Positions 2,819 through 24,546 of a DNA stretch of 37,867 nucleotides are shown here, piece by piece (position 1 is the first letter of the stretch; each line of letters begins with the position of its first letter). The notes below the pieces were generated by a model. It saw only the letters and a program-made list of their open reading frames with translations. It had not been told where the DNA came from and did no database searches. Origin of the DNA: Flavobacteriales bacterium (GTDB taxonomy: Bacteria > Bacteroidota > Bacteroidia > Flavobacteriales > BACL11); the NCBI GenBank assembly GCA_018645865.1, contig JABGVU010000001.1, forward strand, positions 1 through 37,867, given 5' to 3'. The position numbers were made by a program, and so were the translations under genes.

Positions 2819-4393
2819 TTACTTCCTCACTCTTTTTAAATCAAGTAAATTCATTGCATTACTTTCAAAACCTGTAATATTCTTATTCATAAAACGCAAT
2901 ACCCTGTCATAATACAAAGGAACTACAACTGCACTTTCAATAATCAGCTTATCCATTTGTTGATAATAAGCATGTCTAGTTTTAATATTGGTTTCTGATA
3001 AAGATCTTTCATACAAAAGATCAAACGCTTCATTATCAAAGTGCGTATAATTTGGTCCGTTTGGGCAAAAATTCTTGCTATAAAAAAGAGAAAGATAATT
3101 TTCTGCATCTGGATAGTCCGCGATCCAACTACCTCTAAAGAAATTAAGTTTAGATGTGGCAACCATCTGCCTATGGGTAGATGCAGGATTTACTTCTACT
3201 CTAACCTTTAAACCAATATCTTGCAATTGATTTTGAATATACTCACACAAATCTAAATATGAAGAAGTGGTTGATAATATAATTTCATAATCAGCATCAA
3301 AACCATTCTCAATTTCAGCCGCTAAAACTAATTGCCTTGCCTTTTCAGGATTATAACTATATCCATTCAATTTCTCAGAAAATGAAGGCAATCCCATAGG
3401 AATAAACCCTTGATTAGCTGGAGTGCCGATATTATTTCTGAGGTATTTAAGCATTTTCATTCTATTAAAACCATAATTAATGGCTTGCCTAATTTTTAAA
3501 GGCAAAGGAGTTTCCATTAAAAACCCTAGGTATTCAGTATTCAGATATGGCTGAGATTGCAAAATAACTTTGTCTTTATATTTTTCTTGCAACTCTCCCC
3601 TATTAGTTAAAATTTCATCTTTATAACTAGCGTCAATTCCTGAAATAAAATCCAACCTTCCTTGAATAAATTGTAAAAATGCTGATTGCTTATCTTTAAT
3701 AAATGTAATAGCTACTGCATCCAAAAAAGGCAATTGCTTTCCTGCTTCTTTTTCAAAATAGTTAGGGTTCTTTCTAAGTACTAATTTCACACCATCCTTC
3801 CATAATTGAAACTTAAAAGGGCCTGTTCCAATAGGTTGCCTATTAAAATCTCTTGCTTCTATGATTTCCCTTGGAACAACTGAGCAGTATTGCATACTCA
3901 GTAAGGATAAAAATGCAGGAAAAGGAGTTGTTAACTCAATTTTAAATACAGAATCGTTTTCAGCCTTAAAACTACTTGCATTTGACAATACCCAAGCACC
4001 AGGAGCTGCTAATTTTTTATCTAGTAACCTATTAAATGAATACTCAAAATCTTGAGCTATCACTCTCCTGCCTTTTCCATTTTTAAATAGTTTATCCTCA
4101 TGAAAAAGCACATCATCCCTAAGCAAAAAAGTATATACTAAAGCATCTTTAGAAATATGCCAATTTTTTGCAATTGAAGGCTTAATGTTTAAATCATTAT
4201 CAAGTTGCACTAAACCATTGAATAATTGATTAGTTGCCCAAATTGTAGCTTGATCTCTTGCAAAAGCAGGATCCAAAGTTGCTATTCCTGCTGATTCATT
4301 GTACTTAAAAATCGCCAATTCATCATTATTGTACTGCTCAGAACAAGCAGTAAAAAAAAGAGAAACAATAAAAAAGCCGACTTTCCACTTCAT
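2819..4393 (-). CDS. ABC transporter substrate-binding lipoprotein (SBP_bac_5, oligopeptide type)
   Basis: A 524-residue extracytoplasmic solute-binding protein of family 5 (DppA/OppA-like). The N-terminus MKWKVGFFIVSLFFTAC is a lipoprotein signal with acceptor Cys17. The following sequence has family 5 features: SAGIATLDPAFARDQATIWATNQLFNGLVQLD near the start, then IGTGPFKFQLWKDGVKLVLRKNPNY. The WIADYPDAENYLSLFYSKN stretch near residue 425 is typical of peptide binders. No permease or ATPase gene is adjacent, so the ligand and partner transporter are unknown. The start codon lies in the loop of a terminator-like hairpin whose 3' arm and U-tract are the first codons of the signal peptide (separate entry). 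Confidence 0.9.
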   Translation of the reverse strand: MKWKVGFFIVSLFFTACSEQYNNDELAIFKYNESAGIATLDPAFARDQATIWATNQLFNGLVQLDNDLNIKPSIAKNWHISKDALVYTFLLRDDVLFHEDKLFKNGKGRRVIAQDFEYSFNRLLDKKLAAPGAWVLSNASSFKAENDSVFKIELTTPFPAFLSLLSMQYCSVVPREIIEARDFNRQPIGTGPFKFQLWKDGVKLVLRKNPNYFEKEAGKQLPFLDAVAITFIKDKQSAFLQFIQGRLDFISGIDASYKDEILTNRGELQEKYKDKVILQSQPYLNTEYLGFLMETPLPLKIRQAINYGFNRMKMLKYLRNNIGTPANQGFIPMGLPSFSEKLNGYSYNPEKARQLVLAAEIENGFDADYEIILSTTSSYLDLCEYIQNQLQDIGLKVRVEVNPASTHRQMVATSKLNFFRGSWIADYPDAENYLSLFYSKNFCPNGPNYTHFDNEAFDLLYERSLSETNIKTRHAYYQQMDKLIIESAVVVPLYYDRVLRFMNKNITGFESNAMNLLDLKRVRK

Positions 4394-4413
4394 AATTAAG
4401 TTTTAAGTCGGCT
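4370..4413 (-). terminator. Terminator-like hairpin enclosing a start codon
   Basis: On the minus strand AGCCGACTT (4413-4405) pairs perfectly with AAGTCGGCT (4383-4375), followed at once by a run of T (six counting the last stem base). The 21-base loop holds the ATG (4393-4391) of the substrate-binding lipoprotein gene. It has the form of an intrinsic terminator. It could end transcripts from the remnant gene upstream, act as an attenuator for the lipoprotein gene, or hide its start site. Confidence 0.55.
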
Positions 4414-4455
4414 AATTTAAGGATTTAAAATTACCTCATAAGGTTAATTTATTCA

Positions 4456-4716
4456 TTATAAATTAGAAGTAATTCTATCTCCAAAATCCCATTGCCAATT
4501 TACTATTGAATTATTTGTAAAAGAATAATCTACAAAATAAAACACTAATGATCCAGATCCAGTATTGACTGAGAATGTCGTAAAATCAGCAATTACTTGT
4601 GGGCTTGCACTACAGGATATTAGCATGGCTTCAAGGATTATAAAAAAGTATGTTAGCTTATTTTTTATCAGGATTAATCTATTTTTGAATAAAAAGGTAA
4701 GTAAGAGTAATATCAT
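4456..4716 (-). pseudogene. Remnant of a PKD-domain secreted protein
   Basis: An 86-codon ORF whose second half reads as the front of a PKD domain: ADFTTFSVNTGSGSLVFYF followed by WQWDFGD. It stops a few residues after the WDFGD motif, where an intact PKD domain would continue for about 30 more residues. The N-terminus is odd: ten or so leading residues precede KNKLTYFFIILEAMLISC, which itself looks like a lipoprotein signal whose expected ATG has become ATA (ATA AAA AAT AAG). Further stops follow the end in frame. A truncated, decaying relative of the PKD proteins common in this phylum is the best reading; a short functional peptide is less likely. Confidence 0.5.
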
Positions 4717-4807: not shown

Positions 4808-4815
4808 TACTTTTG
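4808..4815 (+). promoter_or_regulatory. TAnnTTTG -7 element (TACTTTTG) of mtaB
   Basis: Exact TAnnTTTG match only four bases before the ATG at 4820. Transcription from here would begin at or next to the start codon, giving a leaderless or nearly leaderless mRNA. Confidence 0.5.
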
Positions 4816-24520: not shown

Positions 24521-24546
24521 AAAAAAGCCCTGCAATATGCAGGGCT
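24519..24546 (-). terminator. Intrinsic terminator of dnaK
   Basis: Perfect 9-base stem AGCCCTGCA/TGCAGGGCT with a 3-base loop, then seven T on the minus strand. It lies 25 bases after the dnaK stop codon. Confidence 0.9.

Follow-up and report, generated by a model that had tools for sequence, protein, structure and literature searches.

Three kinds of element come closest to the one described here: intrinsic (Rho-independent) terminators, transcription attenuators together with riboswitch platforms, and terminator–promoter fusions of the same bacterial lineage. The hairpin at the start of a lipoprotein gene in the window (the whole stretch of DNA analysed, 37,867 nt of a Flavobacteriales genome) resembles an intrinsic terminator in its G-C-rich stem, its immediate T-tract, its position 17–22 nt past the upstream stop codon and its compensatory changes among relatives. 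It differs from the terminators of its own genome, whose loops are mostly 3–8 bases, in having a 21-base loop, and from usual intrinsic terminators in that the loop and 3′ half double as the beginning of the next gene's coding sequence, ATG included. Like attenuators and riboswitch platforms, it is a terminator-like hairpin 5′ of a transport gene and could fold up the start region; unlike them, it is accompanied by no leader peptide, antiterminator or known riboswitch that we could find, and its presence follows the upstream gene, not the gene that would be controlled. The fusions (window positions 24546–24508, minus strand, and four hairpins of the sister genome G013) share with it a short stretch that would end one transcript and start the next. 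They carry a canonical TAnnTTTG box in the hairpin or T-tract, whereas at the lipoprotein locus the loop contains the start codon, and the candidate box, TAAATTAG, is non-consensus and overlaps the 5′ arm. In the literature searched, in which subscription journals are thinly covered, we found no description of a terminator whose loop holds the start codon of the following gene.

The hairpin and the gene that it enters are composed of the following features.

2819–4393, minus strand: gene for a peptide-type ABC substrate-binding lipoprotein, SBP_bac_5 (PF00496), 524 aa
4413–4405, minus strand: hairpin 5′ arm, AGCCGACTT, noncoding, covarying with the 3′ arm across five genera
4404–4384, minus strand: loop of 21 bases, AAAACTTAATTATGAAGTGGA, with the ATG and an inner helix, ACTT/AAGT, inside it
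4393–4391, minus strand: lipoprotein ATG, with no other ATG in frame from the upstream TAA to the lipobox
4383–4375, minus strand: hairpin 3′ arm, AAGTCGGCT, spanning the end of codon 4, codons 5 and 6 and the opening base of codon 7
4375–4370, minus strand: T-tract TTTTTT, the Phe-Phe codons 7–8, invariant in 20 aligned relatives

The stem consists of nine perfect pairs, five of them G-C, with the T-tract directly after it and a hairpin energy of −15.6 kcal/mol; sequence and coordinates thus agree with the stem and T-tract of the preliminary description, as they do with its 21-base loop containing the ATG. The same description placed the 3′ arm and T-tract within signal-peptide codons 4–8, which we confirmed: the 3′ arm begins at the second base of codon 4 (Lys), runs through codons 5 (Val) and 6 (Gly) and stops after one base of codon 7 (Phe), and the T-tract covers codons 7–8. 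Because an in-frame TAA lies just 5′ of the ATG at 4393–4391 and no alternative ATG precedes the lipobox, this is the only ATG usable as a start. The whole element extends from −20 to +19 relative to the ATG, and its exact sequence is unique in the genome, a small MAG of 1.46 Mb.

An RNA spanning −60 to +60 folds at −28.3 kcal/mol, compared with −16.4 ± 3.1 kcal/mol for shuffled sequences (z = −3.8), and is therefore far more stable than expected, a comparison that the preliminary description had proposed. We counted a hairpin as matching if its stem had 9 bp or more without a mismatch, included five or more G-C pairs, straddled the ATG and led into T's. No such hairpin arose in 20,000 shuffles of the window's lipoprotein start, in 24,560 shuffled starts from G013 or among the 614 real starts of that genome. 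Genome statistics were drawn from 800 kb of G013, which belongs to the same genus and has 27% G+C. With relaxed limits (one wobble, four G-C pairs), one of the 614 real starts qualifies, and the G013 orthologue satisfies these limits. The −30 to +30 region of the window gene (−18.7 kcal/mol) is more structured than all 614 G013 start regions, and the combination of a start codon in the loop with a coding T-tract occurs once in the 800 kb of G013, at the lipoprotein locus. A generic terminator scan missed the hairpin, whose loop exceeds the length that the scan allows, and Rfam at a relaxed threshold returned sub-threshold noise with no family even near threshold.

The nearest named relatives of the window genome are marine-type Flavobacteriales MAGs, and a scan of public genomes returned four close relatives only, all Flavobacteriales or Cryomorphaceae MAGs. 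We read the lipoprotein start regions of family orthologues in 52 genomes and judged stem conservation from folding energies and alignment columns. Pairing around the ATG is found in genera g1, g6, g7, g10 and g12, at lipoprotein identities down to ~60%. The stem is AGCCGACTT/AAGTCGGCT in most of g1, AGCCAACTT/GAGTTGGCT in G019 and G002, AGCCAGATT/AATCTGGCT in G044 and AGCCGGATT/GGTCCGGTT in G050. Among 20 aligned sequences, 95% of cells are paired, and pairs 5, 6 and 7 are altered on both sides. Double-change cells number 17 as against 7.8 ± 2.1 in shuffles, a count inflated by relatedness, though the changes reappear in different genera; covariation scores 0.377, and slid partners reach at most 0.142. 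The compensatory stem changes that the preliminary description had suggested seeking by alignment are thus seen across five genera, for example as a synonymous Val change from GTC to GTT in the coding arm that tracks a G-to-A change in the noncoding arm. It had also named a contrary pattern, pairing lost while the amino acids stay. In most relatives this check favours the hairpin, since the Val codons GTC/GTT go with G/A in the noncoding arm; the clear exceptions are G003, G001 and G024, which carry mismatches or deletions in the hairpin and all have a decayed upstream gene. Where relatives lack the hairpin, their signal peptides are quite different and do not start with G-F-F, so it appears to be the hairpin, rather than the protein, that sets this signal-peptide start.

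In nine hairpin-bearing genomes, an intact gene of ~1,780 aa lies upstream on the same strand, with its stop codon 37–43 nt before the lipoprotein ATG; where the contig covers that part, this gene is divergent from mtaB. Two of the proteins, from g1 and g12, contain ~17 PKD domains and, at the C-terminus, a CHU_C type IX secretion domain. Close orthologues occur at the lipoprotein locus only; a search for the gene beside another downstream neighbour returned just shorter paralogues elsewhere. The gene is reduced to a remnant in twelve genomes, the window's among them. In the window, three features of the former gene can be recognized.

4456–4716, minus strand: 86-aa N-terminal remnant of the ~1,780-aa PKD/CHU_C gene, with 60% identity over 86 aa to the intact N-terminus in G004
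4445–4431, minus strand: relic of the 3′ end of the former upstream gene, its final codons with the stop, AAC CTT ATG AGG TAA, with the stem 17 nt later
4783–4757, minus strand: ECF-sigma-like promoter of the former upstream gene, TTGTAAC-N16-CGTT, conserved in most relatives

By this sequence comparison, the window's upstream ORF is a deletion remnant of the gene that is intact in relatives. This reduction of the PKD/CHU_C gene to its first and last few codons is seen in roughly a dozen genomes from several genera (window 4431–4716; L040, L042, L045, L046, L048, L049, L051, L053, L055, L070 and L076), while the flanking mtaB and lipoprotein genes stay. The close sisters G004 and G009 differ in this respect, the gene being intact in one and deleted in the other. 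The TTGTAAC-N16-CGTT promoter is retained in most genomes whose PKD/CHU_C gene body is deleted. In F. psychrophilum, T9SS genes are expressed from a similar CGT-box ECF motif (PMC9723704).

Within the family, the hairpin is seen only 3′ of the ~1,780-aa gene or its remnant, and it is absent from all 11 genomes (g8, g2, g9 and g3) in which that gene is wholly gone. Six genomes (g5, g11, g13 and g15) have no strong hairpin despite an intact ~1,780-aa gene. In g15 (L057 in G036 and L068 in G027), which lacks the strong hairpin, a long and conserved A/T palindrome, TTATTAAATTA..TAATTTAATAA, lies directly 5′ of the lipoprotein ATG and has no T-tract. With an intact neighbour, the hairpin energy is −9.2 to −19.4 kcal/mol in 9/9 genomes; with a decayed neighbour, it is −5.5 to −8.1 kcal/mol in 5/12 genomes (rank test of energy against neighbour integrity, p = 0.19). 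Weakening is thus suggestively tied to decay of the neighbour (5/12 as against 0/9 intact), a tie that partly reflects shared ancestry because the hairpin bearers are essentially one lineage. The gap from stop codon to stem is 17 nt in the window and in G013 and up to 22 nt in the other genomes checked, and terminators across the 800 kb of G013 peak 15–29 nt past stop codons.

The dependence on the neighbour, the energy trend and a gap that matches the terminator position of the genus together point to the upstream gene's own terminator. We consider it most likely that the hairpin is an ordinary intrinsic terminator in an extraordinary position. The full reading, to which we assign a probability of about 0.65, is that the lipoprotein gene has invaded the intrinsic terminator of the upstream PKD/CHU_C gene and that a lipoprotein mRNA starting inside the 5′ arm would escape it. 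By growing into the terminator, the lipoprotein gene would have acquired a start codon in the loop and signal-peptide codons from the 3′ arm and T-tract. RNA arriving from upstream would carry both arms and end at the T-tract, and any read-through RNA would have its start region folded into the hairpin. The terminator part of this explanation is well supported by the comparisons above, and from them we infer that the hairpin probably terminates transcription in the cell. One of the two roles offered in the preliminary description, in which the lipoprotein gene has extended into the terminator of a decaying upstream gene, accords with the remnant ORF, the stop codon 17 nt before the stem, the neighbour-limited occurrence and the covariation of the arms.

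The escape of the lipoprotein mRNA depends on where its promoter lies. The −7 box of the genus, TAnnTTTG, occurs 59 times near starts in G013 compared with 13 in background, and in 34 cases it lies exactly 4 nt before an ATG; this placement implies that many mRNAs of the lineage would be leaderless. In the window's own genome, the same placement is found 18 times, compared with four for the reversed pattern. Window examples are at 4808 (plus strand, mtaB), 11592 (plus strand) and 24520 (minus strand). With the spacing of TAnnTTTG seen in these two genomes, transcription would start 5 nt past the G, which agrees with the −12 to −5 position mapped in F. psychrophilum (PMC9723704). Leaders shorter than 10 nt are rare in B. 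thetaiotaomicron, at ~3.7% (PMC7366714). Close to the lipoprotein gene, no canonical TAnnTTTG was found in most hairpin bearers. A related box is present.

4419–4412, minus strand: TAAATTAG box, conserved as TAnnTTAG or TAnnTTTAG, a candidate −7 element from which transcription would start near 4407

This box has one mismatch to TAnnTTTG. As TAnnTTAG (TAnnTTTAG in g10), ending 17–21 nt before the ATG, it is conserved among hairpin bearers, even in genomes with a broken hairpin, and a like box is present in g5, g11, g13 and g15, genera without a strong hairpin. TAnnTTAG shows no enrichment at promoter positions or near starts in G013, and it was dropped as a genome-wide promoter type for that reason. 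An RNA with its 5′ end near 4407 would lack AGCCG from the 5′ arm, and its start region relaxes from −18.7 to −5.6 kcal/mol. The lipoprotein mRNA would then begin ~15 nt 5′ of the ATG, within the 5′ arm; having left behind the G-C-rich half of that arm, it would form no hairpin and could be transcribed and translated normally. We put a transcription start inside the 5′ arm at about even odds. In g8 and g2, where the ~1,780-aa gene is wholly gone, the lipoprotein genes have a TAnnTTTG box of their own.

The same observations bear on a second explanation, in which both genes form an operon under a shared ECF-type promoter and partial passage through a leaky terminator sets the ratio of the two products. 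The missing canonical box beside most of the lipoprotein genes is consistent with such an arrangement, as are the short intergenic gap (37–43 nt) and the ECF-like promoter kept in most genomes with a deleted ~1,780-aa gene. On read-through RNA, however, ribosomes would meet a start region more structured than any other in the sample, and in this phylum start-region structure tunes translation initiation (PMC6847099); the independent boxes of g8 and g2 likewise argue against a shared promoter. On balance, we regard a leaky operon as unlikely.

More doubtful still is the other role put forward in the preliminary description, a leader-free attenuator in which a 30S subunit initiating on the nascent start codon acts as the antiterminator and, if initiation fails, transcription stops at the T-tract. 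The geometry would suit it, with the hairpin reaching from −20 to +19 around the ATG and thus covering about one 30S footprint, and the hairpin is conserved across genera. An attenuator should, however, stay with the gene that it controls whatever the neighbour, and the hairpin does not: lipoprotein genes with a different neighbour lack it, and several genomes without the ~1,780-aa gene have a weakened form. No leader ORF was seen in the 37 nt between the genes, nor was a leader peptide or known riboswitch found, and we obtained no positive support for competition between initiating ribosomes and termination. A chance inverted repeat in an AT-rich genome is very improbable, as the preliminary description had supposed: 400 kb of reversed sister genome does yield 23 terminator-like hairpins at −9 kcal/mol or better, but the compensatory changes across genera and the absence of a match in 20,000 shuffles stand against it, and we rejected a chance origin because the covariation of the arms refutes it.

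The hairpin at the lipoprotein start looks like an exceptionally tight packing of ordinary signals and not a new kind of switch. Compact arrangements of a related kind occur elsewhere in the lineage. In the window, a terminator at 24546–24526 (minus strand) has a T-tract running into TATATTTG-N4-ATG, and four terminator-like hairpins of G013 contain a −7 box. In these terminators fused to the next promoter (window 24546–24508, minus strand; G013, e.g. AAAGGGATTTCATATTTTTGGAATCCCTTT), there are two layouts, a T-tract that continues into the −7 box and ATG and a −7 box within the hairpin, so the 5′ arm would be missing from the next transcript.

At the lipoprotein locus, ~40 bases would combine three roles, ending one transcript, starting translation and encoding part of a signal peptide, and their noncoding and coding arms co-evolve across genera. 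Synonymous choice and even amino-acid choice (Val or Ser before Gly-Phe-Phe) appear to track the hairpin rather than the protein, and such sites could mislead gene finders and dN/dS analyses. The arrangement fits a habit of compaction in small-genome marine Flavobacteriales, in which terminators would be merged with the next promoter or start.
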